Below, one piece after another: positions 821-36,584 of a DNA stretch of 37,650 nt. The number at the start of each line of letters is the position of its first letter. The first letter of the stretch is position 1. Under the pieces are notes generated by a model. The model had not been told where the DNA came from. It saw only the letters and a list, made by a program, of their open reading frames with translations, and made no database searches. This DNA is from Phormidium sp. OSCR (GTDB lineage Bacteria; Cyanobacteriota; Cyanobacteriia; Cyanobacteriales; Geitlerinemataceae). The stretch spans positions 1 to 37,650 of the forward strand of contig LJZT01000039.1 of assembly GCA_001314905.1 (NCBI GenBank), in the 5' to 3' direction. The translations under genes and the position numbers were made by a program.

Positions 821-876
821 AGGGGAAAGGGGAAAGGGAACAGGCAACAGGCAACAGGCAACAGGCAACAGGGATA
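821..876. repeat. Heptanucleotide array before the MtnX-like gene
   Basis: Eight 7-bp units on the + strand: two AGGGGAA, one AGGGAAC, four AGGCAAC and one degenerate AGGGAT-type unit. The array begins one base from the start codon of the leftward MtnX-like gene, so the sense strand reads TTCCCCT-T-ATG. More heptad-like AGGCAAG sequence appears near 910-920. These resemble the short tandemly repeated repetitive (STRR) heptamers described in filamentous cyanobacteria. Confidence 0.9.
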
Positions 877-983
877 ACCCACCCCTGGCCCCTCCCAAGA
901 GGGGATGGTAAGAGGCAAGAGGGGGCGAGAGTTTGGTAAACTGGAGGGGGTGTTGCCCCGTTAGTTTAAGGCAACTGTACAAC

Positions 984-1020
984 AGATTAGTCACAGTAGA
1001 TTAGTCACCACAGATTAGTC
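984..1020. repeat. 14-bp periodic repeat upstream of prfC
   Basis: AGATTAGTC occurs at 984, 998 and 1012, exactly 14 bp apart, with related spacers (ACAGT and ACCAC). The array ends 26 bp before the prfC start codon and could hold regulator sites or simply be a slippage repeat. Confidence 0.85.
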
Positions 1021-1046
1021 TGCGTTTTCCCTTCCTAAAGTCATTT

Positions 1047-2675
1047 ATGAGCGACGAGCTGCGAACCGAACTGCAAGAGGCCATCGATACCCGACGCACT
1101 TTTGCAATTATCTCCCACCCCGACGCTGGGAAAACCACCCTCACTGAGAAGGTGTTGCTGTATGGGGGGGCAATTCATGAAGCGGGAGCCGTCAAGTCGC
1201 GGCGATCGCAGCGTCACGCCACCTCCGACTGGATGGCCATGGAACAACAGCGGGGGATTTCCATTACCTCAACGGTGTTGCAGTTTCTCTATAACGGCCA
1301 TCATATCAATCTCCTCGATACTCCTGGCCACCAAGACTTTGGCGAAGACACCTATCGCACCCTAACCGCAGCCGATAATGCGGTGATGTTGGAAGATGCC
1401 GCTAAAGGATTAGAACCTCAAACACGCAAATTGTTTGAAGTCTGTCGGATGCGATCGCTGCCTATTTTTACCTTTATCAATAAAATGGATCGTCCCAGTC
1501 GCGATCCCCTCGAACTCCTCGATGAAATTGAACAGGAGTTGGGATTAGCCACCTATCCCGTGACTTGGCCCATTGGTAGCGGCGATCGCTTCACCGGCGT
1601 GTATGATCGCCGCCAAGGGAAAGTCCACCTGTTCAAACGAACCGCTCACGGAAGTAAAGCCGCTGAAGATACAATTTTTGAACTCGGAGATCCCCGCTTA
1701 GCCGACTTAATTGATCCCGAACTGTATCATCAACTCAAAGATGAAATTGAAATCCTCGACGAACTCGGCACAGAATTTGACTTAGATGCCATTCACAGCG
1801 GCAAACTCACCCCCGTCTTTTTCGGCAGTGCCATGACGAACTTTGGGGTGCAGCTCTTCCTCGATGCCTTCGTCGACTATTCCTTAAAACCCCATCCCCG
1901 CCACAGTACCCGAGACGATATTGACCCGACCTATCCTGAATTTACGGGGTTTGTCTTTAAGTTGCAAGCCAATATGGACCCCAAACACCGCGATCGCGTC
2001 GCCTTTATACGCGTTTGTAGTGGTAAATTCGAGAAAGACATGACCGTACAACACGCCAGAACCGGAAAAACCGTGCGGCTGTCTCGTCCCCAAAAACTCT
2101 TTGCTCAAGGTCGAGAATCCCTCGACACCGCCTATCCTGGAGATGTCATCGGCCTCAATAATCCAGGAATGTTTGCCATTGGTGACACCATCTATAACGG
2201 CAAAAAATTAGAATATGAGGGGATTCCTTGTTTCTCCCCAGAAATTTTTGCCTATCTCCGCAACGTGAACCCATCGAAGTTTAAACAATTCCGTAAAGGA
2301 GTCGCAGAACTGCGGGAAGAAGGAGCCGTACAAATTATGTATTCCGTCGATGAATCAAAACGAGATCCCATCCTAGCAGCGGTGGGCCAACTACAATTTG
2401 AGGTGGTTCAATTCCGTATGGAAAGCGAATATGGTGTCGATACTCGCTTAGAACTGTTACCCTTCACCGTGGCCCGCTGGGTTCAGGGAGGTTGGGAGGC
2501 CCTAGAAGAAGCCGGCCGCATTTTCAACACCGCCGCCGTCAAGGACAGTTGGGAGCGTCCAGTATTATTATTCCGCAACGAGTGGAATGTCGCTCAAGTT
2601 CAAGCAGACCATCCCAAGTTACAGTTAAGTAATATCGCCCCAGTCGTGTCAGGGAAAGAGCCAATTGAACGCTAA
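1047..2675 (+). CDS. prfC: Peptide chain release factor 3
   Basis: 542-residue translational GTPase of the RF3 family, which recycles RF1/RF2 from the ribosome after peptide release in the cytoplasm. The P-loop is SHPDAGKTT (about 23-31), the G3 motif is DTPGHQDF (about 91-98) and the G4 motif is NKMD (about 145-148). These are followed by the domain-II beta barrel and the RF3 C-terminal domain ([17 protein letters not shown]). Length matches bacterial RF3, so the gene appears complete. The ATG at 1047 places MSDEL directly before the conserved N-terminal helix. It stands alone, reading away from the MtnX-like gene, with a 14-bp repeat in the shared upstream region. Confidence 0.97.
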
Positions 2676-2690
2676 TGAGCAAGAAACTCA

Positions 2691-2730
2691 CTGAAAACAA
2701 CCCCAGCTAATTTCCCTGAAAACAACCCCA
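2691..2730. repeat. 15-bp direct repeat after prfC
   Basis: CTGAAAACAACCCCA is present at 2691-2705 and 2716-2730, separated by 10 bp, in the 92-bp gap between prfC and the ATP-grasp gene. No hairpin of terminator type is evident there. Confidence 0.85.
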
Positions 2731-2767
2731 ACCCCAAACGAACGACACAAGACCCCCCACAGCCAGG

Positions 2768-4528
2768 GTGAGCAGTAAAATCCCCATGACACATCCCCTA
2801 AAATCAGAGTTCCCAGTTACCCCGATAACTCCCCCCAACCCGGAAGTTGTGAGTGTAGAGATTATCAAAGGGAAAGCACATCATCTCCGGGGTGAGATTC
2901 ACGACGCACTCTACTGGTATCGCCAATCAGTTCTCAATCATCCCACCTGTAGCCTCTCCTATTTCCATCTCGGTGAAGCACTGTTAGCACTCAATAAGTT
3001 ACCGGCAGCATTAACGGCATATTGTAAAGGATTAGCCTGTCATCCAACGGCTCAAAAACTCAATTTCTACCCCCCCCCACAGGGGATTTTAGCTACCAAC
3101 AAAAACAGTCAAATTGAGAAGGTTTTTGTACTTCTAAAAAACCGATGTCGGCAGTTAATAAGTTGTGGCATATATGAAATTAAATCAGGCTTGCAACAAG
3201 ATAGTCGCATTGTTTGGTTTGGTGCATTACAAAATTTAGAAGAGTTAGAAAGCAAGGTTTCTGAAATCATAAACTATTTTCCGAAAGAACAAGAAATGCT
3301 GGCAGAGTTTCGCCAAGAACTCGATGATAAACTTCTTGGTGATATCGACTCTCCCTCAGATCTGACTTCAGTTACCTGGGAACTGGAGAAACAGATGGTA
3401 TACAGCATCAATGATGCAATTATCGATAAAACCATTCTCTCAAAATTGCAAGAAGTTGCTCGGGAAAAACGCCGTTTCGAGAAAACCTATGCTGAGTTAC
3501 TTTACCGAGTTCAGCATTTTGTGAAAGAGCGGAAAGATTATAGTCCTTATTTGTCTGAGCAAGTCCAAAAGGCAGTTGTTTCGACCCTAAAAGCGGATGA
3601 AATTCGGTCACATTTACTGCATTCAGTATATCGTAAATATCAACTTTATAATGCCGCCTCCTTTGGCACCAGTGTCGTCCTGAATGCGAGAAAAATACAA
3701 CTGAGAGGAGGAATCGCCAGTTATGAATTTACTCGTAAAGATTTAGCCTATCAGTTTGCCAAGGAAATTGATTGTCCTATTCCTCTCAACGCTGACACAG
3801 TAGTTACGTTAGCCGAGATTCAGCCTCAAGAGCATATCGTCATCAAACCGTTAACCCAAGCCAACTCCAAAGGAGCCTATATGGTGAAACAGGCGGATGA
3901 TATTCTCGATTTAGGTCGTCGGAAACCGCTGCAACATTGGACGGAGTTAGAAGCTGGCTTGCGGGAAGATTTAGAGACAGGAACAGTGACAGAAGATAAG
4001 TGGATTGTTCAAGAGTTGATTTATGAAGATGCCGAACGCACTCAACCGGCTCGGGATTTGAAGTTTTACTGTTTTTATGGGGAAGTTGCCCTGATTTTAG
4101 AGATTTGTCGCTTTCCAGAAAAACAATTCTGTTGGTGGAATGCCAAGTTAGAGCAAATTAAAACTGGATTATATGAAGACAAGCGATTCACTGGTGCAGG
4201 AGTCACCCCAGAACAGATTAAGTTTGCCGCCTCGATGAGTGCTAAAATCCCGACTCCCTTTATTCGCATTGATTTCTTGAAAGGCTGGCAAGGGTTAGTG
4301 TTTTGCGAGTTTGCGGCGCTCTTCCCAGGGGAGTATCATGGACTAACGGACTCGATTGATACCTGGCTGGGAAACTGTTTTTTGGATGCTGAGGGCCGTT
4401 TAATGGAAGATTTGTTACGGGGGAAAAAGTTTGAGGCGTATTGGCGAGTTCATGAACGGTTGAAGGCGGAATTGATGGCGAAGGGTGAGGGAGAGACGGT
4501 GGATTCTGGGGAATGTCAGAGTTTTTGA
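2768..4528 (+). CDS. TPR and ATP-grasp (TupA-like) domain protein
   Basis: 586 residues from a GTG at 2768; an ATG at 2786 (seventh codon) is an equally possible start. Residues of about 30-95 form tetratricopeptide-like helices (GEIHDALYWYRQSVLNHP, then HLGEALLALNKLPAALTAY). The middle is helical and charged. The last third resembles ATP-grasp proteins of the TupA type: an IVIKPL strand for nucleotide binding, then DLKFYCFYGEV, then FIRIDFLKG and a downstream CEF metal-binding-like segment. TupA-type enzymes ligate an amino acid or sugar-linked carboxylate in cell-surface polymers, but the substrate here is unknown. I saw no GCGATCGC site in the gene, unlike most neighbours, which may indicate transfer. 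It is not obviously co-transcribed with prfC. Confidence 0.7.
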   Translation: MSSKIPMTHPLKSEFPVTPITPPNPEVVSVEIIKGKAHHLRGEIHDALYWYRQSVLNHPTCSLSYFHLGEALLALNKLPAALTAYCKGLACHPTAQKLNFYPPPQGILATNKNSQIEKVFVLLKNRCRQLISCGIYEIKSGLQQDSRIVWFGALQNLEELESKVSEIINYFPKEQEMLAEFRQELDDKLLGDIDSPSDLTSVTWELEKQMVYSINDAIIDKTILSKLQEVAREKRRFEKTYAELLYRVQHFVKERKDYSPYLSEQVQKAVVSTLKADEIRSHLLHSVYRKYQLYNAASFGTSVVLNARKIQLRGGIASYEFTRKDLAYQFAKEIDCPIPLNADTVVTLAEIQPQEHIVIKPLTQANSKGAYMVKQADDILDLGRRKPLQHWTELEAGLREDLETGTVTEDKWIVQELIYEDAERTQPARDLKFYCFYGEVALILEICRFPEKQFCWWNAKLEQIKTGLYEDKRFTGAGVTPEQIKFAASMSAKIPTPFIRIDFLKGWQGLVFCEFAALFPGEYHGLTDSIDTWLGNCFLDAEGRLMEDLLRGKKFEAYWRVHERLKAELMAKGEGETVDSGECQSF

Positions 4529-4544
4529 GTTTGGCTGGGGTGGG

Positions 4545-4596
4545 TTGCGGGGATTTAGACACTCGGTTTCTGGGAGAAACCGGGTGTCTGAGTGAG
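4545..4596. repeat. 52-bp hairpin repeat, copy 1
   Basis: First of two identical 52-bp copies in direct orientation. It contains 15-nt arms (4557-4571 and 4575-4589, AGACACTCGGTTTCT and its near complement) around a GGG loop, with a single T/G mismatch that becomes a G-U pair in RNA. It starts 16 bp after the ATP-grasp stop codon and ends 21 bp beyond the DUF2442 stop codon, so it could also serve as a transcription terminator. Confidence 0.9.
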
Positions 4597-4617
4597 TGAT
4601 GGTGGGGTGAAAAGTCC

Positions 4618-4893
4618 TTAATTTGATGTTATCATTGGCAGTTCCAGGGGTTGATTCGTCAGAAGATGATAAAGGACATCAGGATCTAAATCTGCCCCAT
4701 TTTCCCAATAGATTGTTCCCCAGTCGGGATTCACCTTCACTGTTGCAAAGTAATTCGGATCTTGAAGGGGAGCGAACACGCCTGTAAAGTCAATTAACTG
4801 GCGTACCTGTACAATTCCCTGAACACCATCTTCAAAATGAATTCGAAGTTGGTAGTTCTCAAGAGGTTCAACAGCGACAATGTCTTGCAGCAT
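4618..4893 (-). CDS. DUF2442 family small protein
   Basis: 91 residues from the ATG at 4893. The sequence follows the DUF2442 pattern: an N-terminal strand MLQDIVAVEPL, a central FEDGVQG turn, then GVFAPLQDP and GTIYWENGADLDPDVLY before a short tail. Members of this family are often found beside small DUF4160 proteins in toxin-antitoxin-like pairs, but no partner lies next to this copy. The frame is open further upstream, through a 52-bp repeat and into the purB 3' end, but that extension reads repeat sequence and is rejected. The gene is bracketed by two identical 52-bp hairpin repeats. Function is unknown. Confidence 0.85.
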   Translation of the reverse strand: MLQDIVAVEPLENYQLRIHFEDGVQGIVQVRQLIDFTGVFAPLQDPNYFATVKVNPDWGTIYWENGADLDPDVLYHLLTNQPLELPMITSN

Positions 4894-4909
4894 AAGGCTC
4901 AATCGGGGA

Positions 4910-4961
4910 TTGCGGGGATTTAGACACTCGGTTTCTGGGAGAAACCGGGTGTCTGAGTGAG
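4910..4961. repeat. 52-bp hairpin repeat, copy 2
   Basis: Identical to the copy at 4545-4596 over all 52 bases and in the same orientation, 365 bp away. It lies between the DUF2442 start codon (17 bp away) and the purB stop codon (28 bp away), where its hairpin could end purB transcription. Confidence 0.9.
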
Positions 4962-4988
4962 CTACAAACGGCTGATTTCCGGCATTCC

Positions 4989-6287
4989 CTAGATGTTCAA
5001 GCGTTGATAGACTTGATCGAGATTGCGCAGATGGTATTGAGGATCGAAACATTCGTCCACCTCTTCCGGGGTGAGATGTTGCGCTACCCGAGGATCTTGA
5101 CTGATCAACTTGCGGAAATCGCCATTGGGTTGATTCCAGGCACTGTGAGCGCAAGACTGGACGATCGCATAGGCATCTTCGCGACTCACCCCCTTACCCA
5201 CTAGGGTTAACAACACTCGCTGGCTGAAAATGACTCCGCCATAGAGGTTCATGTTGCGCAACATATTCTCGGGATACACCAGGAGATGTTTCACCAACTC
5301 CGTGGTTTCATGGAGCATGAAATGTAATACGGTGCAGGAGTCTGGCAGAATCATGCGTTCGACGGAACTGTGGGAAATATCCCGTTCATGCCACAAGGCG
5401 ACATTTTCCAAGGCGGCGACGGCATTTCCCCGAATCACCCGCGCTAACCCTGACAACCGTTCCGAACGGATGGGATTGCGTTTATGCGGCATGGCTGAGG
5501 AGCCTTTTTGGCCTTTGGAGAAGTATTCTTCGACTTCTAAAACATCGGTGCGTTGTAGGTTGCGAATCTCGACGGAGAATCGTTCCAGAGACGCCGCCAC
5601 CAAGGCCAGGGCCTGTACAAATTCGGCATGGCGATCGCGGGAAATCACCTGAGTCGAGGCCATATCCGGTTCTAACCCCAGTTTCTGACAAGCCAAGGCC
5701 TCAATCCGGGGATCTAAGTTGGCGTAAGTTCCCACCGCGCCGGAGATTTTACCCACCGCCACCGCTTGACGCACCGCCACGAGGCGATCGCGGTGACGCA
5801 ACATTTCCGCCAACCAACCAGCCAACTTAAAGCCAAAAGTAATCGGTTCAGCGTGAATCCCGTGGGAACGGCCCACCATTACCGTGTGGCGGTGTTGTTG
5901 CGCCTGATAGCGAATCGCCTGAATCGTATCTTCGAGTCGTTGCAACAAGACATTGGTACTGGCCACCAACTGCAACGCCAGCGCCGTATCCAGCATATCG
6001 GAACTGGTCATTCCCAGGTGGATATAGCGTCCTGCATCGCCGACATACTCATTGACGTTGGTGAGAAAAGCAATTACGTCATGACGGACTTCGGCTTCAA
6101 TTTCTAAAATGCGCTCAGGCTCAAAATTGGCTTTGGCTTTAATCTCCTCCACCGCTTCAGTGGGAATATAGCCGAGTTCTGCTTGGGCCTCACAAACGGC
6201 AATTTCAACTTGCAGCCAAGTTTGATATTTATACCGATCTGTCCAAAGGTCGCCCATTTCGGGCAAAGTATATCGTGGGATCGACAT
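4989..6287 (-). CDS. purB: Adenylosuccinate lyase
   Basis: 432-residue enzyme of the fumarase/aspartase superfamily. It acts twice in purine synthesis, splitting fumarate from SAICAR and from adenylosuccinate. Visible signatures are GMTSSDMLDTA (about 92-102), GRSHGIHAEPITFG (about 139-152) with a conserved His, and the superfamily signature GSSAMPHKRNP (262-272) with the flexible catalytic Ser loop. Length is typical and the MSIPRY start matches the family. It is transcribed leftward, divergent from the GAF-PAS gene over a 137-bp gap, and ends next to a 52-bp hairpin repeat. Confidence 0.97.
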   Translation of the reverse strand: MSIPRYTLPEMGDLWTDRYKYQTWLQVEIAVCEAQAELGYIPTEAVEEIKAKANFEPERILEIEAEVRHDVIAFLTNVNEYVGDAGRYIHLGMTSSDMLDTALALQLVASTNVLLQRLEDTIQAIRYQAQQHRHTVMVGRSHGIHAEPITFGFKLAGWLAEMLRHRDRLVAVRQAVAVGKISGAVGTYANLDPRIEALACQKLGLEPDMASTQVISRDRHAEFVQALALVAASLERFSVEIRNLQRTDVLEVEEYFSKGQKGSSAMPHKRNPIRSERLSGLARVIRGNAVAALENVALWHERDISHSSVERMILPDSCTVLHFMLHETTELVKHLLVYPENMLRNMNLYGGVIFSQRVLLTLVGKGVSREDAYAIVQSCAHSAWNQPNGDFRKLISQDPRVAQHLTPEEVDECFDPQYHLRNLDQVYQRLNI

Positions 6288-6424
6288 CCGCCATTCAACG
6301 TAATCACAACCTTCCTATTGTACGACGGCTGGTGTAACCTGCTGCTTGCGAATCTCGTTTAACTCGACTAATACTTAACGTGCGTCATCGAGCAAGGGAT
6401 AATTAAACCACATCAGGTGTCACA

Positions 6425-7471
6425 ATGAGGTTGGATATGCCAGATCGCCCTAATTCCGAAAAACCCGTGTCCCCCAATTCTAACCGTCCCGTTGCGGCTC
6501 AACATCTTAAGGCCCTACAACGGGCGATCGCCGCTCAAAACGAGTTAATCTCGAGTGCCTATGCCACGCAACGAGCGGCCCGGGGACAGTTGATGCTCAA
6601 ATCCATCCTACTCGAAATCGTCCAAGTCTTCAGCCGTCTGACGGCAGCCGAAGAAGGCAGCGTCTTTCTCCTCAATGACGAGGGAGTGGTAATTGAGAGT
6701 ATTCTGGCACGGGGTGCGACGATGCGAGAACTCAAACGCAACCTCATCGGACAGGTTTTAGATCAAGGGTTGGCGGGATGGGTGGTGAAACGCCGCCGTT
6801 TAGGCATTATTGATGACGCAGATGCCGATGATCGTTGGGTGACGTTGGCTTATCAACCCTATCAAGTGCGATCGGTTCTCTGTATCCCGATTTTTAAAGC
6901 TAAGCAAGTTTGTGCGGTGGTGACGCTGATGCACCCAGATGTGGCTCATTTTAGTCACTTAGCGATTTTACGCTATGTAGATGTTGTGGCCTCTGTGGTG
7001 GGGTTAGTGTTGGATAATGTGCAACAGAAGATTGAACTGGCTGAAATCAATGAGTTACACGCCATTGGTTCGAGTGAGTCGGTTCCCATTTCGGATCCCT
7101 CTTCTGATTCCTCTGGAGAGAGTGCATCCCCCTCCTCAGGAACCGTCAACACAGAACTCACGGAAACCGGGGTTTATATTATTACCGGAGACGGGAAGTT
7201 CCTCTATGCGAATCCTCGCTTCGCCCATTTCTTCGACTACCGTCTTGAGGATTTAGTCACCCTGAATTCAATGTTTGAGTTAATTTGTCCCCATAGCGGC
7301 GATCGCCTTCTCCAAGATATTAAACGCTGTCTCAATCGGGAAATTCGCAGTTTTAGCGGTTCCTGCGAAGGACGTGGTAAACATGGCAACACCATCCCGC
7401 TGATCCTTGAGGGCAATCTCACCCGTTTCTACGGCAAACCTGCGATTGTTGGAACGTTACAACGAGGATAA
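6425..7471 (+). CDS. GAF-PAS sensor domain protein
   Basis: 348-residue soluble protein with no transmembrane segment. Residues of about 60-200 form a GAF domain (LLEIVQVFSRLTAAEEGSVF, then GLAGWVVKRRRLGIIDDA and VRSVLCIPIF). After a Ser/Pro-rich linker (about 215-238), residues of about 245-345 form a PAS domain (GVYIITGDGKFLYANPRF). No histidine kinase, GGDEF, EAL or receiver domain follows, so it probably senses a ligand or redox state and signals through a partner. I see no conserved Cys of a bilin-binding GAF domain. An alternative start is the ATG four codons downstream at 6437. It converges on trpA across a heptamer-filled junction. Confidence 0.8.
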   Translation: MRLDMPDRPNSEKPVSPNSNRPVAAQHLKALQRAIAAQNELISSAYATQRAARGQLMLKSILLEIVQVFSRLTAAEEGSVFLLNDEGVVIESILARGATMRELKRNLIGQVLDQGLAGWVVKRRRLGIIDDADADDRWVTLAYQPYQVRSVLCIPIFKAKQVCAVVTLMHPDVAHFSHLAILRYVDVVASVVGLVLDNVQQKIELAEINELHAIGSSESVPISDPSSDSSGESASPSSGTVNTELTETGVYIITGDGKFLYANPRFAHFFDYRLEDLVTLNSMFELICPHSGDRLLQDIKRCLNREIRSFSGSCEGRGKHGNTIPLILEGNLTRFYGKPAIVGTLQRG

Positions 7472-7473
7472 AT

Positions 7474-7627
7474 AGGCAAGAGGCAAGAGGCAAGAATATC
7501 GCGATCTGTTCCCTGTTCCCTGTTCCCTATTCCCTGTTCCCTGTTCCCTATTCCCTATTCCCTGTTCCCTGTTCCCTATTCCCTATTCCCTATTCCCTAT
7601 TCCCTATTCCCTATTCCCTGTTCCCTA
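7474..7627. repeat. Heptanucleotide arrays joining GAF-PAS and trpA
   Basis: Two arrays of opposite polarity fill the convergent junction. Three AGGCAAG units (7474-7494) start two bases after the GAF-PAS stop codon. After a 14-bp spacer, exactly 17 TTCCCTG/TTCCCTA units run from 7509 to 7627. The last unit contains CTA at 7625-7627, which is the trpA stop codon (TAG) on the other strand. In the sense strand of each gene the sequence after the stop codon is purine-rich. Confidence 0.95.
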
Positions 7628-8419
7628 CGAAATCGCCTGCTTTAACTCTTGACAAAATTGCTCTATCTGTGCTAAGCCTTCCGCCGCCGTTCCTTGACTG
7701 AGACGCTTCACGAAAGCACTGCCACAAATCGCTGCATCTGCCCCCCAGTCTTTCATTTGGCGGGCGTGTTGCGGTTCCGAGATGCCGAACCCCACGCCGA
7801 TGGGTTTGTCGGTGACGGCCCGCAGTTGGGGAATTAACTCCTTGACGCGATCGCTCACTTGAGTGCGAGTTCCCGTCACCCCAGTCACACTCACCAGATA
7901 GATGAAGCCTTGGGACTTTTGGGCGATCGCCAGAATCCGCTCTTTGGGGCTAGTTGGGGCGATCAGTAACACCACTTCCACCCCAACCGTCTTGGCACAA
8001 TCGATTAAAACCTGAGACTCTTCTAGGGGTAAATCGGGAACCACCAACCCCTTCACACCCGCCTCAGCAATGGATTTGAGGAAGGCTTCGATACCCCGAT
8101 TCAGAATCGGGTTGTAATAGGTAAACAGAACAATTGGGGCGGAAATTTCGGGGCTAACCTTGCGCACTACATCCAAAACATCGTCGAGTCGGACTCCCTG
8201 TTTCAAGGCCCGTGTGGCGGCGGCTTGAATGGCGGGGCCATCAGCGAGGGGATCTGAATAGGGAACGCCTAATTCAATAATATCCGCACCACTGCGATCG
8301 AGAACCCGTAGGGCTTCAGCGGTGGTTTTTAAATCCGGATCTCCGGCAGTAATGAAGGGGATTAAGGCACATTGCCCCGCTTGGCGTAGACTCGCAAACG
8401 ACTCAGAAACCGATTTCAT
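7625..8419 (-). CDS. trpA: Tryptophan synthase alpha subunit
   Basis: 264-residue TIM-barrel enzyme that cleaves indole-3-glycerol phosphate to indole and glyceraldehyde 3-phosphate, working with TrpB. The catalytic-region motif [16 protein letters not shown] (about 47-62) holds both the conserved Glu and Asp. The phosphate-binding segments GVGFGIS (about 213-219) and ICGSAF (about 235-240) are intact. Length is standard. It is the last gene of a leftward group after ndhL and DUF3007, with a 4-bp gap to DUF3007. Its stop codon is formed by the last unit of a 17-copy heptad array, so the 3' UTR is entirely repeat. Confidence 0.97.
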
Positions 8420-8423
8420 GGAA

Positions 8424-8783: not shown

Positions 8784-8842
8784 AAGGATCGTCAGATTGT
8801 TCAGCTTGATTCAGCGTGAGGGAAGATGTCTCACCAGAGGCG

Positions 8843-12536: not shown

Positions 12537-12550
12537 TACGTCTTCCTCCC

Positions 12551-12585
12551 TCTTGCCTCTTGCCTTTTGCCTCTTGCCTTTTGCC
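12551..12585. repeat. Heptanucleotide array before dnaJ
   Basis: Five units, TCTTGCC or TTTTGCC, run from 12551 to 12585 and are followed by a pyrimidine stretch ending CCCCTA right before the dnaJ ATG at 12599. The pyrimidine-rich strand is the dnaJ sense strand. No Shine-Dalgarno sequence is visible. Confidence 0.9.
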
Positions 12586-12598
12586 TTCTTCTCCCCTA

Positions 12599-13564
12599 AT
12601 GCAAAACTTCCGCGATTACTACAAAATACTGGGAGTTCCCCGAGACGCTTCGACCGAGGAAATTAAACGCTCCTACCGGCGGCTGGCCCGGAAGTACCAC
12701 CCGGATATGAATCCGGGGGATAAGTCGGCTGAGGAGCGATTTAAGGACATCGGGGAAGCCTACAATGTGCTATCCGATGCAGCCAAACGCAGTCAATACG
12801 ACCAGTTCAGCCGCTTCCTGAATCAGAAGAAAGCCAAACGGCGACCAGTGGCCCGCAATCCCCGCAGTACCGCCCCAGCCGATGCCCGTTTTGAGCAATA
12901 TGCGGACTTTAACAGTTTCCTCGACGATCTCCTCAATCGTCGTCCCAATGCCCGCAGCGCCCCACAACCGCCCCCAGGCACTCGCTTACGGGTAGATAGC
13001 CCCGATGCCTTCCGCACCCGCACCACCAAAACCTCCTATACGGTGTCTCGCCCAACTCCCCAAGATGTGGAGGCGCGGCTGACGTTGCCCCTAGAGAAAG
13101 CCTACACCGGTGGACGGGAGCGGATTCGCCTCGAAGATGGGCGATCGCTCGAAGTGACAATGCCCCCCGGAATGGTGACGGGGCAACGGATTCGCCTCAA
13201 GGGCCAGGGCAATCATGGAGGGGACTTATATCTCAAGATTACCGTCGCCCCTCATCCTCTGTTCCGCATCGAAGGGGCGGATATTGTCTGTACGGTTCCC
13301 GTCACGCCCTCGGAAGCAGTGTTAGCGGCCAAGGTGGAGGTGAAAACCCTCGATGGTTTAGTGAAGGTAGGACTTCCCAATGGGGTGAAGTCGGGGCAAC
13401 GGTTACGGTTAGCGGGGAAAGGCTATCTGACGCGAGATGGCCGTCGAGGCGATCAGTTGGTGGAGGTGCAAATTGTCACCCCCCGAGAGATTACTGCCGA
13501 GGAACGGGAACTGTACGAGAAACTGCGATCGCTCGAAACCTTCAATCCCCGCCGCGATGGCTAA
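12599..13564 (+). CDS. dnaJ: DnaJ-type co-chaperone (no zinc finger)
   Basis: 321 residues from the ATG at 12599. An N-terminal J domain (about 6-70) carries HPD at 34-36, which stimulates Hsp70 ATPase. The linker is rich in Arg, Pro and Ser. Residues from about 150 on form the two beta-rich C-terminal substrate domains ([16 protein letters not shown] and [14 protein letters not shown]). There is no CxxCxGxG zinc-finger cluster, so this is a type II, CbpA-like DnaJ. The frame is open 38 codons upstream, but that part only translates a heptad array. The gene follows dnaK by 104 bp and overlaps the DUF1818 gene by 8 bp, so it probably serves the adjacent DnaK. Confidence 0.93.
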
Positions 13565-17950: not shown

Positions 17951-20689
17951 CTAGAGGGGATACCGATCGCGCACAAAAGCGATCGCCGCCTCCCGAGAAC
18001 CCCCAAAATCCCCATCTAACGTCCCCGCCTGGATATCCGCCAACATTTCCCTAAATTGCGGCCCCGGTTTATACCCCAACTGCTTCAAATCCTCCCCATT
18101 TAACAGCGGTTTCACCTGAGCCCACTCCGTTAGATAGTGCCAAATCTTGCGCCGCAGCGATCGCCCCAACCCCAACGCCACCAACAACAACCCCGCTAAC
18201 TCCTCCCCCGACAACACCTGCACCACCTCACTCGGCCGCTGCGCCTTCCTCAACTCCCGTTCGAGACGCTCACGTCGTTCTCCCAACGTCGCCAACCGTT
18301 GCACCGTCTCATCCGGTAACTGTAACTGTTGCGCCACCGCCGCTCGCGAAAACTCCCCCGATCCCATCTCCACCTGGGACAACAACACCTCCAACAACAT
18401 CTGCCAATGACTCAGACGATGCCAGTTCTGAAAGCGCCGCAACCCCCGATCCGCTAACTGTAACCGCCGCCACAGTTCCCGCGTCAAGCGTAACTGAGGA
18501 TGCAAACATTGCAACGCCCCCAAGCGATCCAACTCCCGCAAGGCTCGTGGCCAATACGACGCTTGCAAGAGATATTTCAACTCACTTTTTAATCGCGCCT
18601 GTAACGCCGGAGTGCGGGGATTGAGGGAGCGCGATCGCTCATACACCCCACTGGCGATCGCATGACGAATAAACCGTTCCGTCTCCGGTTCAATCTCAAA
18701 CTCAAACCGCACCGCAAAACGCACCGCCCGAAAAATCCGCGTCGGATCTTCAATAAAACTATTGGCGTGCAACACCCGCACCCACCCTCGCTGCAAATCC
18801 AACACACCACCAAAAAAGTCCAACAACTTCCCCTGACGAGGGGTTGTCAAGCGAATCGCCAAAGCATTAATCGTAAAATCCCGGCGATACAAATCCTGAC
18901 GAATCGAACTCGCCTCCACCTCTGGATTCGCCGCTGGATAGGGGTAAAACTCCGTCCGCGCCGTAGCAATATCCAACCACAGAGAATCAAAAATGGGGTC
19001 ATTGTGCCATAACAACGCCGCCGTCTGGAACGCCCCATGCACATCCAACCGCGCCCCCGAAAACTGCTCCTGTAACACGTTCGCCAACTCCACCCCCGCG
19101 CCAACTGTCGCCGACTGGTGAAAGCCATCCACCACTAAATCAATATCCGTTAAGTCCACCTGAGTCTCTTGCGGTGACTGCATCACTCGCAACAAATCTC
19201 GCACCGCTCCCCCCACCAGATACAGTTGCCAGCCTCGTTCCTGAGCCGCCTGGGCTGCGGTTTCGAGCAATTGCCACAGTTTGGGGTTGAGGTGCGATCG
19301 CAGGCCATCCCACACATCCGCCTCCCGTGTCAACCGCCGCCCCTGGGAACCGCGTTCAGGATGGACGGGACAGAGTTGACTGCTGTCTTCATGGAGTTCT
19401 CGCAAGACATCGGTGCGGGTGACAATTCCCACCAATGCCCCCTCGTCTAAGACCGGTAGGCGACCAATATCAAACGTCACCATCAGCCCTTCAATTTCGG
19501 GCAGCAAGGTGTCTGGACTAATCGTTTTGACGTTTCGCGTCATATAGCCTTTCACGGGGGCATGGTGGAAGCCGTGGTGCAGGGCAATGTCCAAATCCCG
19601 GCGGGAGATGACCCCCACTAATTCGTCAGCTTGGTTCACCACCGATAAGCCGGAATGGCCGTAACGCAACAAAATTCGATGGGCCTCGCCAATGGTGGTA
19701 CTCGGGCGAATGGTACGCACGGGAGATGACATTAATTCTCGGGCCGTCGGCGGTGGGGGAATTTGGGCTTTGAGGCGATCGCACAACTGGCGCAACACCT
19801 GATCAGGGTTGGCATTCCGCAATTGGGCTGAACCGGCTTTGCGATGGCCACCCCCACCGATGGTTTGTAGAATGGCATTGAGATCGGTCTGGGGAATCTG
19901 CGATCGCGCAATCACTGTCAGCCGCGACTCATCCCCCTGACGTTGATACTCATGCAGCAAAATCAGGGCATCGCTATCCGTCAGTTCCAGCAGCCGCGAG
20001 GTTAATCCCGATAATCCCGGCACGTAATCGGGGGTTCGCAACACCACTGAGGCGACTTGTTGCCCCCAAACGTCCTCCGTCTTCACGGTTTCTAGGGCGG
20101 TTGCTAACAAGTCTTGCAAGGAATCCGATAATCCCGGTTCAATATACTCGGCAATCAACGTCAGACTGGCCCCCTGCTTCATTAACCAGGCTAAGGCCAA
20201 GGCATCCCGCGCCGTACTATGGTCAAAGGTCAGAGATCCACTATCGACATGAATCCCTAGGGCCATTACCGTGGCTTCATGGACGGTGAGACTGATGTTG
20301 TGCTGTTGCAACTGTTCGGCGATTAGGGTGGTTGTGGCCCCAATCGCTTCAACTTGACGCTGACTGGCGGGAATGTCTCCTCTGACACCGGGATGATGGT
20401 CATAAAGATACACTCCCTGTAACTGGGGTGCGTCGAACCATTCAGCGGCTTTGCCGAGGCGATCGCGTGATTGAGTATCCACCACAAACAGCGATCGCAA
20501 CTGTTCGGGATTCACTGATCGCCGCTCGATGATGGCATACTCATCTCGGTGCAGTCTCAGAAACTCCTCGACTCCTGGATGAGCACCCCCAGTGAGGACA
20601 ATACGAGCGCCAGGGTGCAGTCGGGTTAGGCCAACGGCTGCCCCTAAACTATCGAAATCGGCGGTGGTGTGACAGAGGATGATGTCCAT
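17951..20689 (-). CDS. DHH-CBS-CCA tRNA nucleotidyltransferase fusion
   Basis: 912 residues in a known but striking multidomain architecture. Residues 1-310 form a DHH-DHHA1 phosphoesterase: ADFDSLGAAVG (Asp11, Asp13), DHHPG (97-101) and GGGGHRKAG (278-286). Two CBS domains follow (about 320-370 and 383-432), which often bind adenosine nucleotides. From about 485 on is a class II nucleotidyltransferase with GGAVRD (493-498), metal-binding Asp515 and Asp517 in DIDLVVDG, and RRDFTINALAI. Such fusions in cyanobacteria and Aquifex add A or CC to tRNA 3' ends; which one cannot be told here. The DHH part may be a nuclease or pyrophosphatase. A composite heptad array lies just upstream of the ATG. 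Confidence 0.93.
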   Translation of the reverse strand: MDIILCHTTADFDSLGAAVGLTRLHPGARIVLTGGAHPGVEEFLRLHRDEYAIIERRSVNPEQLRSLFVVDTQSRDRLGKAAEWFDAPQLQGVYLYDHHPGVRGDIPASQRQVEAIGATTTLIAEQLQQHNISLTVHEATVMALGIHVDSGSLTFDHSTARDALALAWLMKQGASLTLIAEYIEPGLSDSLQDLLATALETVKTEDVWGQQVASVVLRTPDYVPGLSGLTSRLLELTDSDALILLHEYQRQGDESRLTVIARSQIPQTDLNAILQTIGGGGHRKAGSAQLRNANPDQVLRQLCDRLKAQIPPPPTARELMSSPVRTIRPSTTIGEAHRILLRYGHSGLSVVNQADELVGVISRRDLDIALHHGFHHAPVKGYMTRNVKTISPDTLLPEIEGLMVTFDIGRLPVLDEGALVGIVTRTDVLRELHEDSSQLCPVHPERGSQGRRLTREADVWDGLRSHLNPKLWQLLETAAQAAQERGWQLYLVGGAVRDLLRVMQSPQETQVDLTDIDLVVDGFHQSATVGAGVELANVLQEQFSGARLDVHGAFQTAALLWHNDPIFDSLWLDIATARTEFYPYPAANPEVEASSIRQDLYRRDFTINALAIRLTTPRQGKLLDFFGGVLDLQRGWVRVLHANSFIEDPTRIFRAVRFAVRFEFEIEPETERFIRHAIASGVYERSRSLNPRTPALQARLKSELKYLLQASYWPRALRELDRLGALQCLHPQLRLTRELWRRLQLADRGLRRFQNWHRLSHWQMLLEVLLSQVEMGSGEFSRAAVAQQLQLPDETVQRLATLGERRERLERELRKAQRPSEVVQVLSGEELAGLLLVALGLGRSLRRKIWHYLTEWAQVKPLLNGEDLKQLGYKPGPQFREMLADIQAGTLDGDFGGSREAAIAFVRDRYPL

Positions 20690-20695: not shown

Positions 20696-20816
20696 AGGCA
20701 AGAGGCAAGAGGCAAGAGGCAAGAGGGGGGAGAAGGGAACAGGGAACAGGGAACGGGGAATAGTGAATAGTGAATAGTGAATAGGGAACGGGGAACGGGG
20801 AACGGGGAACAGGAAC
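20696..20816. repeat. Composite heptanucleotide array before the CCA fusion gene
   Basis: About 17 units in blocks: four AGGCAAG (20696-20723), a G-rich spacer, then units of AGGGAAC, TAGTGAA and GGGGAAC type up to about 20816. The array starts 6 bases from the start codon of the leftward fusion gene, whose sense strand is the pyrimidine-rich one. Unlike the other arrays it has a TAA stop just before the ATG in frame, so no N-terminal extension is possible. Confidence 0.9.
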
Positions 20817-28498: not shown

Positions 28499-28510
28499 AG
28501 GGGATTGGCA

Positions 28511-28575: not shown

Positions 28576-28633
28576 CTTTGAGATCTCTCCCTGGACTTGT
28601 CCCCCCGACCCCTCCCTAACGGTTTTAACAATC

Positions 28634-29635: not shown

Positions 29636-29669
29636 ATTAATGTAAAATAACTGGAATGAGGACGATATC

Positions 29670-32232: not shown

Positions 32233-32235
32233 GTC

Positions 32236-33234
32236 CTAACCGTGACGCTTCTGATGCCATTGCCACGCGTGACCGACAATATCGCGCAACTGAGGATATT
32301 GAGGAACCCAGCCCAACCTTTGACGAGCCTTGTCACTACTCCCGACTAAAATGGGAGAGTCTCCAGCCCGGCGATCGGCAATCTGCACAGGAATCTTGCG
32401 GCCCGTAATCTCATTGGCCACATCAATCACATCTTTAACCGAAAAGCCATTCCCATTGCCCAAATTAAAGGCCTCGGAGTCACCACCCGCGAGTAAATAC
32501 TCCAACCCCAAGACATGGGCTTGTGCCAAATCGCAGACATGGATATAGTCGCGCACACAAGTTCCATCGGGAGTATCGTAGTCGGTGCCAAAAATGGCGA
32601 TCGACTCCCGTCGTCCTAACGCGGCCTGAAGTACCAAGGGGATGAGGTGGGTTTCAGGATGATGATCCTCCCCGAGTCGCCCTTGAGGATCAGCACCAGC
32701 GGCATTGAAATAGCGGAAACAGACCGATTTGAGACCATAAGCCGTATCAAAGTCCGCCAAAATTTGTTCAACCATCAATTTCGTAAAGCCATAGGGACTG
32801 ATGGGAGCCTGAGGATGATCTTCCGTCAGAGGCATAAACTGAGGAATCCCATAGGTGGCACAGGTGGACGAGAAGACTAAATGGTTCACCCCCGCCGCTT
32901 GCATCGCTTCTAGGAGGGTTAAGGTTCCCACCACATTGTTGTGATAATACTTAGCCGGATCAGTCACCGACTCGCCCACGAAGATATAAGCCGCAAAGTG
33001 CATCACCGCCGCGATGTCATGGTTCGCAAAGAGATCATCGAGGAGGGGGCGATCGCAGGTATCCCCGAGAATCAACTCCACCCCTAACACCTCCTCAACT
33101 AAATCCCGGTGGCCATAGACGAGATTATCCAGAATCACCACCGAATAGCCGGCAGCTTGGAGAGCCAGAACCGCATGGGAGCCAATATATCCAGCTCCGC
33201 CGGTGACGAGAATGGTCGGTTTACTTGAAGACAC
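32236..33234 (-). CDS. galE: UDP-glucose 4-epimerase
   Basis: 332-residue short-chain dehydrogenase-type epimerase that interconverts UDP-glucose and UDP-galactose, giving precursors for surface polysaccharides. The NAD-binding motif is GGAGYIG (12-18), the substrate region is FSSTCATYG (about 121-129) with the catalytic Ser, and the YxxxK pair is Tyr148 and Lys152 in YGFTK. FRYFNAAGADP is also typical. Length is standard. It lies 75 bp after the kinase gene on the same strand and tail to tail with the small gene at 31855. Confidence 0.96.
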   Translation of the reverse strand: MSSSKPTILVTGGAGYIGSHAVLALQAAGYSVVILDNLVYGHRDLVEEVLGVELILGDTCDRPLLDDLFANHDIAAVMHFAAYIFVGESVTDPAKYYHNNVVGTLTLLEAMQAAGVNHLVFSSTCATYGIPQFMPLTEDHPQAPISPYGFTKLMVEQILADFDTAYGLKSVCFRYFNAAGADPQGRLGEDHHPETHLIPLVLQAALGRRESIAIFGTDYDTPDGTCVRDYIHVCDLAQAHVLGLEYLLAGGDSEAFNLGNGNGFSVKDVIDVANEITGRKIPVQIADRRAGDSPILVGSSDKARQRLGWVPQYPQLRDIVGHAWQWHQKRHG

Positions 33235-33309
33235 GGCAAATTTCTCTGAGAGTCTGTACTACTCTCTCCAGAATAGGAGCAAATTCCGGAATTTGACGGG
33301 AGTTGCCCC

Positions 33310-35433
33310 CTATTGATGCCAACACCAAATTTTGATGGTTTTATCCCAACTTCCCGAGACGATCGCCCCACTGCGTCGAGCCACCGCAATCCCATGTACT
33401 GCCCCCATATGCCCCGAGAGCGTATCACAAACGCGACGGCCCTGAATACTCCAAATTTTGATGGTCTTATCACTACTGGCCGACACCAACATATCCTGAT
33501 TGAGACCAAAGGCCACATCATTAACATCCCAAAGATGATTGGCCAGAGTACAGACTTCCGTTCCTGAAACGAGATTCCAGACCTTAATCGTGCGATCCTT
33601 ACTACCACTCGCTAAAAACTGACTATCCGGCGAAATAGCCACCGATAACACCGATCCTAAATGGCCCGTCAGCGTATGCACTAACTGGCGATCGCCCAAA
33701 CTCCAGACATAAATCTTATTATCGAGACCCCCACTCACCAGCCAGCGGCTATCCGACGAGAGAGCAATAGCCTTAATACTGCCCGAGGGTGTTTTCAACA
33801 CCCCTGTTGTCTCACTTTGGCCCGGTGTCCAAATTTGCAGGGTGCGATCCTTACTCCCACTAATCAGACAAGCCCCATCCGCCGAAAACGCCAAGGATGT
33901 GACTCCCCGTAAATGCCCCCCAAGACTTTCAATGAGTTCTCCCGACTGCAAATTCCATAACTTAACCGTCGCATCATCGCCGCCACTGGCTAACACCTGG
34001 CCATCGGGACTAATGGCCACCGCGTTCACCGGACGACGATGGCGATCGAGAGCATACTGAAGCTGCCCCGTCTGCAAATTCCAGACAAAGACCGTATTAT
34101 CCAACCCTCCCCCGACAATCCAGGGTAGAGCCGATGTTCGTAGATTGGGTGACAAGGATTGCGGCTTGTGAGGGAGTTCATGGACAGCCACGCAACTGAC
34201 TAACGACGTCAACGCCGGCAACGTATAAGAACAATGCCAGCCCCGCGTTTTCGGTAACGGCGGCCGGTGGGAAATCGGCGTAATCTCCTTAAAGCGACTG
34301 TTTGAGGTAGGAAACGTCCGCCCCGAAGGAACCGGTGTCAATGAGGACGGTTTCGGAGGTGGAGGGGGCATCGAACGACGAGGCTGCTGAGAGGGGGGAG
34401 CATCGAGATGAGTCGGCGGTAGTGAGGCGTTTGGGGGAGGTGAGTTGGTCCGTGACACAGGAGTATAGGGTTGACCTTCAGCCACAGCCGTTTGCCGCTG
34501 TTTGGCTGGACGGCGGCGGCCCGTCTGGGGCCGACTGGTGGGGGTTTTAAAGTCTCGAATAATCTCATCAACCGACTGATAGCGATCGCGGAGTCGTTCC
34601 TGAGTCATCTTGTCAAGAATTGCCCCAAGTCGTGGACTCACTGAAATCTGCTCGGCTTCGAGATACTCCCGCCAACGCCACCCTTTCATCGGATCAAACA
34701 ACACATCAGGGCGCGTGTTCGTCAACAGTTGCAGACAAGTGACCCCCAAACTATAAATATCACTAGCCGGATAGGCCTGACCGCTGCGTAACTGTTCTAG
34801 GGGCGCATAGCCCATGGTACCCACCTTCGTTCCCGGTTCAGCCAACGCCGTTTTGGTTAACTGTTTCGAGACGCCAAAGTCAATCAACATCAGTTTGCCA
34901 TCACGATTGCGCCGTAAAATATTCACCGGCGTGATATCACGATGGACGACATTATTTTGATGCACATACCGTAACACCGGTAACAGTTGCACCAAAATCT
35001 CACGAATTTTTGCCTCCCCGAACGCTCCCGTCCGCTCCATCTCATGCCACAGGGTTTGTCCATCGACGTATTCTTGCACCAGATACAGCCGTCCCTCTTC
35101 CTCAAAAAAGGCAAACAAGGTCGGAATATGAGGATGTTCCCCGAGCTTTGACAGTTGGGTTGCTTCTTGGTAAAACAAGGAGATGGTCTTGTCATAGCTG
35201 CCTTCTGTGACATCGCTGCCGTCGTCTTGGGGCAGTAGTTGTTTAATCACACAGAAGGTATTGAGGCGGTCTTCATCGACGGCAATGTAGGTTCTGCCGA
35301 ATCCCCCTCTCGCTAATGGTTTGGTGGGACGATACCGTCCTCGCAGTTTGAGGCGGGAACCACAGGTCACACAGTGACTAGCCTCGTCTGTATTTCGGGG
35401 CTGCGAGCAGTTGGGATTGAGGCAGAAGATCAT
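33310..35433 (-). CDS. Ser/Thr protein kinase with zinc ribbon and WD40 domain
   Basis: 707 residues. A four-Cys zinc-ribbon-like start (Cys4, Cys9, Cys21, Cys24) is followed by a Hanks-type kinase: glycine loop ARGGFG (41-46), Lys64 in CVIKQL, Glu90, catalytic loop HRDITPVN (164-171) and DFG (185-187). Thr168 occupies the usual Lys position of HRDxKPxN. A Pro/Ser-rich linker (about 300-400) leads to seven WD40 repeats from about 425 to the end, enough for a full propeller. Such proteins in cyanobacteria respond to stress or cell-surface signals; targets are unknown. The gene is upstream of galE on the same strand. Confidence 0.93.
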   Translation of the reverse strand: MIFCLNPNCSQPRNTDEASHCVTCGSRLKLRGRYRPTKPLARGGFGRTYIAVDEDRLNTFCVIKQLLPQDDGSDVTEGSYDKTISLFYQEATQLSKLGEHPHIPTLFAFFEEEGRLYLVQEYVDGQTLWHEMERTGAFGEAKIREILVQLLPVLRYVHQNNVVHRDITPVNILRRNRDGKLMLIDFGVSKQLTKTALAEPGTKVGTMGYAPLEQLRSGQAYPASDIYSLGVTCLQLLTNTRPDVLFDPMKGWRWREYLEAEQISVSPRLGAILDKMTQERLRDRYQSVDEIIRDFKTPTSRPQTGRRRPAKQRQTAVAEGQPYTPVSRTNSPPPNASLPPTHLDAPPSQQPRRSMPPPPPKPSSLTPVPSGRTFPTSNSRFKEITPISHRPPLPKTRGWHCSYTLPALTSLVSCVAVHELPHKPQSLSPNLRTSALPWIVGGGLDNTVFVWNLQTGQLQYALDRHRRPVNAVAISPDGQVLASGGDDATVKLWNLQSGELIESLGGHLRGVTSLAFSADGACLISGSKDRTLQIWTPGQSETTGVLKTPSGSIKAIALSSDSRWLVSGGLDNKIYVWSLGDRQLVHTLTGHLGSVLSVAISPDSQFLASGSKDRTIKVWNLVSGTEVCTLANHLWDVNDVAFGLNQDMLVSASSDKTIKIWSIQGRRVCDTLSGHMGAVHGIAVARRSGAIVSGSWDKTIKIWCWHQ

Positions 35434-35587
35434 GATGATGCGCGCTGGGACGGGTTGGCGAGTCCGGGTCTATTTTCTATTGTCTCTGATTAACCCGCAA
35501 CTGTCTTCTTTTTCTGGTTCAGGTTTTGCTTCAGGTTAAGGAACTGAATTTAGCATCACCAGATTGAGATCTCAGTCTCCTGAATCT

Positions 35588-35651
35588 CCTCGCCTCGCCT
35601 AGAATCGGGTTAGAGAGGACCCGTTCTCGTCTCTCGCCTGGGGAGGCGAGG
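35588..35651 (+). promoter_or_regulatory. Long hairpin in the leader of the HAD gene
   Basis: CCTCGCCT occurs twice on the left (35588-35595 and 35593-35600, overlapping) and AGGCGAGG lies on the right (35644-35651). Inner arms CGGGT (35606-35610) and ACCCG (35619-35623) make a second stem. The structure ends 43 bp before the HAD start codon. The rest of 35434-35694 has no recognised element. Confidence 0.55.
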
Positions 35652-35694
35652 ATGCTAAAATCCTGCCCATTGGCTCAATCTACTCGACTCTGCG

Positions 35695-36483
35695 ATGAAA
35701 TCAACTCTTTTTGCTCTCGACTTTGACGGTGTTTTATGTAATGGACTGATTGAATATTTTCAAACCGCCTGGCGGGCCTACTGTCAGGTTTGGTCCCCGA
35801 ATCAGACGACGCCACCGGAGGATCTCGCGGCGAGTTTTTACCGTTTACGTCCTGTTGTTGAGACGGGTTGGGAAATGCCGGTTGTGCTGCGATCGCGCCT
35901 GTTGGGCTACTCTGAAGCTGAGATCTTAACGGATTGGCGACCGGTGTGTCAGACGGTGGTGGACTCCGAAAACCTCGATCGCACTCAACTCGCCAACGCC
36001 GTCGATGGAGTTCGAGATAACTGGATTCGCGAAAATATCGATAACTGGCTCAGTTTACATCGTTTTTACCCCGGAGTCATTGAGCAGTTAAATCACTTAC
36101 AAGAAGCGGACATTCCCTGGGTTATTATTACCACCAAAGAAGGACGATTTGTGCGCGCTCTTTTAGCAGAACAAGGCATCGAGTTGCAGCGTAATCAGTT
36201 ATTTGGCAAAGAAGTCAAACTCGAAAAACAGGAAATCTTACGTCGTTTGTTAACTGAAACCCCCTACTCAGAGATTATTTTTGTCGAAGATCGGCTCAAT
36301 ACCCTAGAATCTGTAGCTGAACAGGACGATTTAACTGCGGTACAGCTTTATTTGGCAGATTGGGGCTATAATACAGAGTCGATGCGACATCAGGCTGAGC
36401 AAGATCCACGTATTACCGTCATTTCCCTCAGTCAGTTTGAACAGCTCATTCTGAATCATCAACCCTCCACAACATCAAGTTAA
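35695..36483 (+). CDS. HAD-superfamily hydrolase
   Basis: 262 residues. Motif I is DFDGVLC (9-15), with a long helical cap (about 17-125), motif II in VIITTKEGRF (Thr near 147), a Lys in the KLEKQEILRRLL stretch and motif IV IIFVEDRLNTLE (near 200). The layout is that of a phosphatase-type HAD enzyme with a C1 cap; the substrate cannot be read from the sequence. It precedes the OYE-family gene on the same strand by 101 bp, most of which is a heptad array, so co-transcription is possible. Confidence 0.8.
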   Translation: MKSTLFALDFDGVLCNGLIEYFQTAWRAYCQVWSPNQTTPPEDLAASFYRLRPVVETGWEMPVVLRSRLLGYSEAEILTDWRPVCQTVVDSENLDRTQLANAVDGVRDNWIRENIDNWLSLHRFYPGVIEQLNHLQEADIPWVIITTKEGRFVRALLAEQGIELQRNQLFGKEVKLEKQEILRRLLTETPYSEIIFVEDRLNTLESVAEQDDLTAVQLYLADWGYNTESMRHQAEQDPRITVISLSQFEQLILNHQPSTTSS

Positions 36484-36507
36484 GTCAGACGAAAGAATTG
36501 CTGGCGA

Positions 36508-36584
36508 TTCCCTATTCCCTGTTCCCTGTTCCCTATTCCCTGTTCCCTATTCCCTATTCCCTGTTCCCTGTTCCCTTTTCCCCT
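36508..36584. repeat. Heptanucleotide array before the OYE gene
   Basis: Eleven perfect 7-bp steps (TTCCCTA, TTCCCTG, then TTCCCTT and TTCCCCT) run from 36508 to 36584, and the ATG at 36585 follows the last unit without a gap. The sense strand is pyrimidine-rich and has no Shine-Dalgarno sequence. The array is open in the gene's frame and would read as Pro-Tyr-Ser-Leu-Phe-Pro-Val repeats. Confidence 0.95.

Follow-up and report, generated by a model that had tools for sequence, protein, structure and literature searches.

Heptad repeat arrays in Phormidium sp. OSCR adjoin genes at both starts and stops with their purine-rich strand pointing outward

Tandem heptads described as short tandemly repeated repetitive (STRR) sequences are familiar from filamentous cyanobacteria, Phormidium being a filamentous genus, and position or polarity relative to genes is not known to be part of their definition. 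We studied such arrays in the genome of Phormidium sp. OSCR (4,694,862 bases), beginning with a stretch of 37,650 nucleotides that is part of its contig 56 (hereafter, the window), where an earlier note had described four arrays running up to start codons. Two published systems come closest. For the G-rich heptads GGGAATC and GGGGA(C/T)T of two Xanthomonas and of Nostoc sp. PCC 7120, PMC4692102 (2015) reports a two-sided polarity rule: the G-rich strand is antisense within 50 bp upstream of open reading frames (ORFs) and sense within 50 bp past stops. As described there, stops are overlapped on the coding strand only, repeats lie nearer to their 5' neighbor whatever the direction of the ORF, the heptads are dispersed and mostly intergenic, and relatives carry varied repeats at the same loci; its authors could assign them no role. 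MacGregor 2015 (PMC4679880) describes direct repeats of the heptad TAACTGA in Beggiatoaceae and some cyanobacteria, oriented and ending a few nucleotides before starts. There, 132 of 170 sets run toward a start without a ribosome-binding site (RBS), only 12 of 170 run toward stops, a Microcystis sample is of mixed orientation, and binding by S1, Csp or Csr is suggested.

Heptad arrays were detected by lag-7 matching in 79 stretches and the window, together 1,239,601 bases or 26% of the OSCR genome, in which 1,028 genes were called with a purpose-built dicodon model. At a score of 14 this yielded 126 arrays; 2 were removed by a low-complexity filter, 2 were mostly coding, and 25 had no flanking gene in their stretch, leaving 97 usable. 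Polarity was called from G versus C counts, so that "purine-rich" is shorthand, and a few arrays, such as L099 4843-4888, are G-rich but not purine-rich. Of 28 arrays no more than 15 nt from a start codon, 27 have the pyrimidine-rich strand as sense (p=2e-7); of 31 within the same distance of a stop codon, 25 have the purine-rich strand as sense. Seen from the gene, then, the purine-rich strand points outward at start and stop ends alike. The low-complexity filter had taken out L080 869-893 and one window array that obeys the rule (that of the MtnX gene, below), which, if counted, brings the starts to 28/29.

Could intergenic repeats simply land by chance at the edges of small intergenic regions? 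Nearly all arrays (122 of 124) lie mostly between genes, and short regions make boundary abutment common. With uniform placement inside the intergenic regions that the arrays occupy, however, the end that faces the gene under the outward-purine rule is expected within 15 nt of a gene in 15.2 of the 97 arrays; it is found there in 52, and the opposite end in 7. The 118 arrays found at score 11 were also compared with 2000 shuffles across all intergenic regions. Of the outward-purine kind, 29 lie within 15 nt of a start (4.5 expected, never more than 15 in a shuffle) and 25 within 15 nt of a stop (3.6 expected, never more than 12). Arrays of opposite polarity number 1 against 4.5 expected at starts and 8 against 3.5 at stops, the latter above chance (P=0.03). 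Random placement, within the same regions or across all of them, falls short of the counts and is refuted; we give chance practically no weight. The start-codon preference and strand polarity proposed in the earlier note therefore hold across the surveyed 26% of the genome against shuffled positions. They are not peculiar to starts, since stops attract arrays about equally in OSCR, with the purine strand as sense. The survey lends no support as such to the note's suggestion that insertion is targeted to starts, and start-codon enrichment alone is no proof of a translational function, because stops are enriched too.

Of the control periods, 5 and 6 gave 0 usable arrays each, 8 gave 1, and 9 gave 3, compared with the 97 of period 7. 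Three TTCCCTN units have 1128 matches in the whole genome against 1 for the reversed-order pattern. The most frequent units are AAGAGGC, AACAGGG, AATAGGG, and AATAGTG; TAACTGA is absent among the units listed from OSCR arrays. Between tandem gene pairs, 30 of 44 pyrimidine-sense arrays lie nearer to the start than to the stop, as do 0 of 16 purine-sense arrays. Several OSCR contigs (C2, C4, C8, and others) start or finish within heptad arrays, which thus seem to break the assembly, making array counts lower bounds. A separate repeat of about 37 nt (GTTTCAATCCCTCAAAGGGATTTTAGGGAATTTCGAG, assembled by eye) has 14-mers with 74-77 copies each in the sample; by its look, it may be CRISPR-like.

The arrays and junctions of the window are the following:

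820..872, minus strand: heptad array, purine-rich on the plus strand, adjoining the MtnX ATG; pyrimidine-rich strand is sense for the HAD-family (MtnX-like) gene at 166-819
817-825, minus strand: MtnX junction CCCCTTATG, exact in the sequence
7474..7495, plus strand: AGGCAAG array, purine-sense, 2 nt past the stop of the GAF-domain gene at 6437-7471
7506..7626, minus strand: TTCCCTR array (as read on the plus strand), purine-sense for trpA (7625-8419, minus strand), overlapping the trpA TAG stop by 2 nt
12549..12587, plus strand: TTGCCTC/TTGCCTT array, ending 11 nt ahead of the dnaJ ATG (12599)
12593-12601, plus strand: dnaJ junction CCCCTAATG, exact in the sequence
20696..20726, minus strand: AGGCAAG array, 6 nt off the ATG of the DHH-CBS-polyA-polymerase (CCA) gene at 17951-20689; pyrimidine-rich strand is sense
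20734..20810, minus strand: AGGGAAC/AATAGTG array behind the AGGCAAG array of the CCA gene, of identical polarity
36507..36582, plus strand: TTCCCTR array, ending 2 nt ahead of the OYE ATG (36585)
36580-36587, plus strand: OYE junction CCCCTATG, exact in the sequence

By Pfam matches, the four array-led genes encode a HAD-family protein (the MtnX-like gene of the earlier note), DnaJ, a DHH-CBS-polyA-polymerase fusion (its CCA fusion), and an NADH:flavin oxidoreductase (its old yellow enzyme, OYE). The earlier note had these arrays right: their coordinates are exact, with the CCA array beginning 6 nt off its ATG, each of the four has its pyrimidine-rich strand as sense, and all three junctions it listed read as given. 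The shared form that it derived from them, CCCCT-(0 or 1 nt)-ATG, is real and a minority form, preceding 3 of 29 array-led ATG genes in the OSCR sample (6 of 856 others); TTCCCCC|ATG is more frequent (6 of 29 versus 3 of 856). A fifth array locus, at 7474-7627 and absent from that note, lies between the stops of the GAF-domain gene (whose product has a PAS match below cut-off) and trpA. It is purine-sense after both stops, and its polarity therefore flips mid-locus. At 872-915, and at many loci of the sample, a dispersed ~45-nt unit (ATAACCCACCCCTRRCCCCTCCCARGAGGGG plus flanks) stands within or beside heptad arrays, by eye in a single orientation relative to the purine strand; it is reminiscent of the small dispersed repeats that accompany heptads in Nostoc.

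The survey was repeated in three other genomes. From the complete genome of a sister species (G005), 40 evenly spaced stretches (800,000 bases) gave 47 arrays, 46 of them usable. Within 15 nt, all 13 arrays at starts are pyrimidine-sense, and those at stops split into 4 purine-sense and 4 pyrimidine-sense. With 57 arrays at score 11, outward-purine arrays number 16 against 1.6 expected at starts and 5 against 1.4 at stops (P=0.0085), where the opposite polarity also exceeds expectation (4 against 1.3, P=0.04). The stop rule is visible in this genome only between convergent genes (3/3 nearest within 15 nt). G053 and G036 represent two further families of the order; their 30 loci each are the first among 217 and 105 matches, respectively, to one array family and make a thin, selected set, within which the arrays no more than 15 nt away are purine-sense at 7/7 stops and pyrimidine-sense at 2/2 starts. 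Genes in these two genomes were called with a codon-usage caller instead of the dicodon caller used elsewhere; on 12 sequences, the dicodon caller gave 126 genes and the codon caller 117, with 116 sharing the stop and 99 the start as well. All four genomes follow the start rule. Support for the stop rule is strong in OSCR, thin but uniform in G053 and G036, and confined to convergent genes in G005.

When the four genomes were pooled and each of 232 arrays was assigned to its nearest gene boundary, the two gene ends proved to differ in reach. At starts, outward-purine and outward-pyrimidine arrays stand at 2:0 (up to 0 nt), 15:0 (1-5 nt), 30:0 (6-15 nt), 12:1 (16-40 nt), 25:5 (41-100 nt), and 23:7 (beyond 100 nt), so that 59 of 60 obey up to 40 nt. 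The corresponding figures at stops are 18:0, 11:5, 8:5, 14:3, 14:10, and 7:17. Between 6 and 40 nt, starts are stricter (42:1 versus 22:8; Fisher p=0.003), and up to 5 nt there is no difference (17:0 versus 29:5; p=0.16). Start-side polarity stays strict out to about 40 nt; stop-side polarity is absolute only where the array overlaps the stop. The former, reaching over tens of bases, points to the leader, and the latter points to the stop codon itself. The most economical account is one of turnover plus two filters: STRR-type heptad arrays of fast turnover, with a different filter acting at each gene end. We give this reading just short of an even chance.

On this account, STRR-type arrays would spread and turn over fast between genes. 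In 5' leaders, the pyrimidine-sense orientation would survive, giving a C/U-rich, nearly unstructured leader free of Shine-Dalgarno (SD) sequences in which ribosomes could start; in the reverse orientation, the leader would fold and would carry runs of G and, in some cases, SD-like words at the wrong place. At 3' ends, arrays that overlap a stop would survive as purine-sense only, since the edge of that strand would bring or keep a stop codon, mostly TAG. We infer that selection is the filter and translation initiation the selected trait. The account takes in position, polarity, dependence on distance, lack of SD words, and change of unit at conserved sites, all of which we observed.

The composition of the leaders fits the 5' part of this account. 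An SD-like 4-mer (GGAG, GAGG, or AGGA) occurs in 0/29 OSCR and 0/16 G005 array-led ATG genes, 0/45 in all, whereas other genes have one in 209/856 and 115/497 cases, respectively; the earlier note had seen none at its three junction genes, and the leaders of all four window genes lack them. In folding predictions that included 30 nt of coding sequence, 46 array leaders averaged -3.4 kcal/mol and 400 array-free leaders -12.7, which makes array leaders nearly unstructured by prediction. Reverse-complementing the array and gap gave -13.3 kcal/mol (-16.6 with quadruplexes allowed) and put an SD-like word into 11 of the 46. As modeled, array leaders are unusually open, and their reverse orientation would be ordinary. 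Native base composition was tried as the source of polarity and rejected: array-free leaders are slightly pyrimidine-biased in their last 30 nt, array-free trailers have no purine bias, and CCC exceeds GGG in the sense strand both upstream of starts and downstream of stops.

Leaders of this kind might instead be positively selected elements, in which S1 or another RNA-binding protein binds the pyrimidine array in place of an SD sequence and array length tunes translation. Array leaders have the traits of S1-dependent SD-less leaders (SD-free, pyrimidine-rich, and unstructured by prediction), the OSCR genome encodes S1-domain proteins (two frames with three S1 matches each), and PMC4679880 proposes S1, Csp or Csr binding for TAACTGA heptads. 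Comparison among seven species, in which MtnX and CCA orthologues were located by protein search, speaks to the same point. Pyrimidine heptads reach the MtnX ATG in 7/7 species (short in G006), with varying units; they lead the CCA gene in 6/6 species that yielded a match (G003 gave none), with about two units in G001; and dnaJ has polar heptads in 7/7 (a remnant in G001), again with different units. Units at these conserved leaders switch between TTGCCTN and TTCCCTN types, so position and polarity are kept while the unit changes. The dnaJ junction CCCCTA|ATG is kept in 7/7 species and TCTCCCCTA|ATG in 6/7. The CCA orthologue of G005 (C1:43504-44843) matches in three separate pieces, as though its frame were broken.

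Against this role stands the OYE array, present in OSCR, G004, and G006 and missing in the other four of seven species (G001, G002, G003, and G005). Two of these four array-free leaders read CCCT|ATG, and the junction is thus partly older than the array. Among 108 reciprocal-best gene pairs between the OSCR and G005 samples, start arrays were found in both members of 2 and in OSCR only in 1, so that one of three array-led OSCR genes with such a partner is array-free there; stop-side arrays, moreover, would need a separate cause. The earlier note's suggestion of a leader element is thus possible, because the leaders are SD-free, predicted to be nearly unstructured, and kept in sisters at three of the four window genes, OYE excepted (3/7 species); as the full explanation, we consider positive selection of such elements doubtful. 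About equally doubtful is the proposal that arrays form an interchangeable class of 5' leader in the genus, with selection keeping a long, unstructured, SD-free pyrimidine leader at MtnX, dnaJ, and CCA while the repeat family swaps between species, the function lying in polarity and composition and not in sequence. If true, unit number would be a quick means of retuning translation.

The end of the OYE gene (37548-37616, near the contig end) has a peculiarity of its own: its last ~22 residues match 11 short stretches elsewhere in the OSCR genome, some of them at contig ends (e.g., C32, C63, and C105), and full-length sister orthologues align only up to residue 333-336. Judging by these matches, a repeat dispersed in the genome seems to extend into the end of the gene. 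By OYE, the closest named relatives are Phormidium willei BDU 130791 and Phormidium sp. SL48-SHIP.

At stops, the two-filter account draws on the GAF-domain gene, in which a TAG at the edge of the array serves as the stop codon for four of six species (G001, G005, G006, and G002; the gene was not found in G003). Directly before the array, the gene ends in TAA in OSCR and in TGA in G004, and its last residues vary among the six species. As read from these alignments, the array evidently supplies the stop codon at this one locus. More generally, TAG ends 16 of 30 genes with array-abutted stops versus 443 of 1511 others (p=0.008; OSCR and G005). By inspection, the main unit families lack a stop codon in every frame of their pyrimidine strand; that of the rarer AACTATT family does hold one. 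Stop supply as the complete cause at stops was rejected, as it leaves the 14:3 at 16-40 nt unexplained.

The array content of intergenic regions differs between OSCR and its sister G005. Of 79 syntenic intergenic regions compared between OSCR and G005 (nine regions longer than 900 nt were omitted), arrays occur in both at 4, in OSCR only at 4, and in G005 only at 3. At OSCR L032 11936-12120, the flanks are near-identical to those of G005 and the repeat inside is different. At OSCR L049 3493-4097 (contig 13), a 604-nt insert, encoding a 23S-rRNA-IVP-family gene (PF05635) between outward-purine heptad arrays, stands edge to edge in place of the complete 28-nt G005 intergenic region. Such a replacement is what one would expect if a fixed-polarity process at the DNA level (directional growth, conversion or insertion) ran to coding edges from both sides, irrespective of gene direction. 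Three further observations fit this: 52 of 97 arrays have their purine-5' end no more than 15 nt from a gene, against 7 for the other end; among 24 neighboring array pairs in OSCR intergenic regions, 8 flip from purine to pyrimidine and none the other way; and PMC4692102 describes a direction-blind rule of the same kind in unrelated bacteria. However, no homogeneity gradient runs along the arrays (mismatch 0.057 versus 0.055; p=0.55 for 45 OSCR arrays, p=0.63 for 9 from G005), and directional growth was rejected on that ground. The flank difference is weak in OSCR (p=0.04) and nil in G005, polarity at 6-40 nt is kept more strictly at starts than at stops, and G005 shows one flip in each direction. 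We therefore regard a DNA-level process as unlikely, clearly more so than a leader element.

A fourth proposal invokes G-quadruplexes, with the G-rich strand on the template side upstream of genes and on the message downstream, serving regulation or mRNA stability. PMC4692102 reports that such heptads form quadruplexes in vitro, and 12 of 16 G4-capable arrays near stops are purine-sense. Yet only some arrays carry four GGG runs, so that quadruplex-forming units are not general here, and arrays without GGG obey equally, 20/20 at starts and 18/22 at stops. Quadruplexes were rejected as the general cause of polarity, and we find a quadruplex function improbable.

Several observations weigh against turnover with two filters. 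At starts, polarity persists past the length of a leader (23:7 beyond 100 nt), and at stops it reaches past overlap (14:3 at 16-40 nt). In tandem regions of G005, 2 purine-sense arrays and 4 pyrimidine-sense ones lie no more than 15 nt from a stop. The purine units AACAGGG and AAGAGGC have no internal stop codon, and stop supply can thus work at the array edge only. The OYE leader does without an array in four sisters. Array-free leaders also lose about 3 kcal/mol when reversed (-12.7 to -15.6, predicted), and reversed array leaders resemble ordinary ones in predicted folding (p=0.23; 29 leaders of at least 45 nt, quadruplexes not counted); structure alone is thus a weak reason for the missing reverse orientation. 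The genes come from a purpose-built caller rather than curated annotation, and start positions are uncertain. In Xanthomonas, finally, initiation is usually SD-led. The start rule applies there as well (PMC4692102).

How, then, do the OSCR arrays compare with the known systems? Like STRR heptads of filamentous cyanobacteria, they are tandem 7-bp repeats, present in many copies and intergenic. With the TAACTGA heptads (PMC4679880) they share abutment on starts and a mostly RBS-free setting; they differ in that the TAACTGA unit is not purine/pyrimidine-polar, as OSCR units are, and that this unit was not found among theirs. With the G-rich heptads of Xanthomonas and Nostoc (PMC4692102) they share the two-sided polarity (27/28 at starts and 25/31 at stops within 15 nt in OSCR); the units are different, and in OSCR, GGG-free arrays obey too. 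Placement and polarity at starts, which the earlier note took to be new, are therefore already on record, the two-sided rule in PMC4692102 and start-abutting heptads in PMC4679880, and OSCR is a well-supported further case, not a new phenomenon. Beyond what PMC4692102 describes, the two gene ends are here separated by distance, and leaders were examined for folding, for SD-like words, and for a changed repeat unit among sisters. In the heptad literature covered, we met no precedent for the obedience of GGG-free arrays, the unequal reach at the two gene ends, or unit change at conserved polar leaders; these are possibly, though not certainly, new. The two-sided rule now extends to a further genus and, thinly, to two more families of its order. 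It holds without quadruplex capacity, and sisters carry or lack an array at the same gene; hence, a published and unexplained rule becomes testable by leader swaps.

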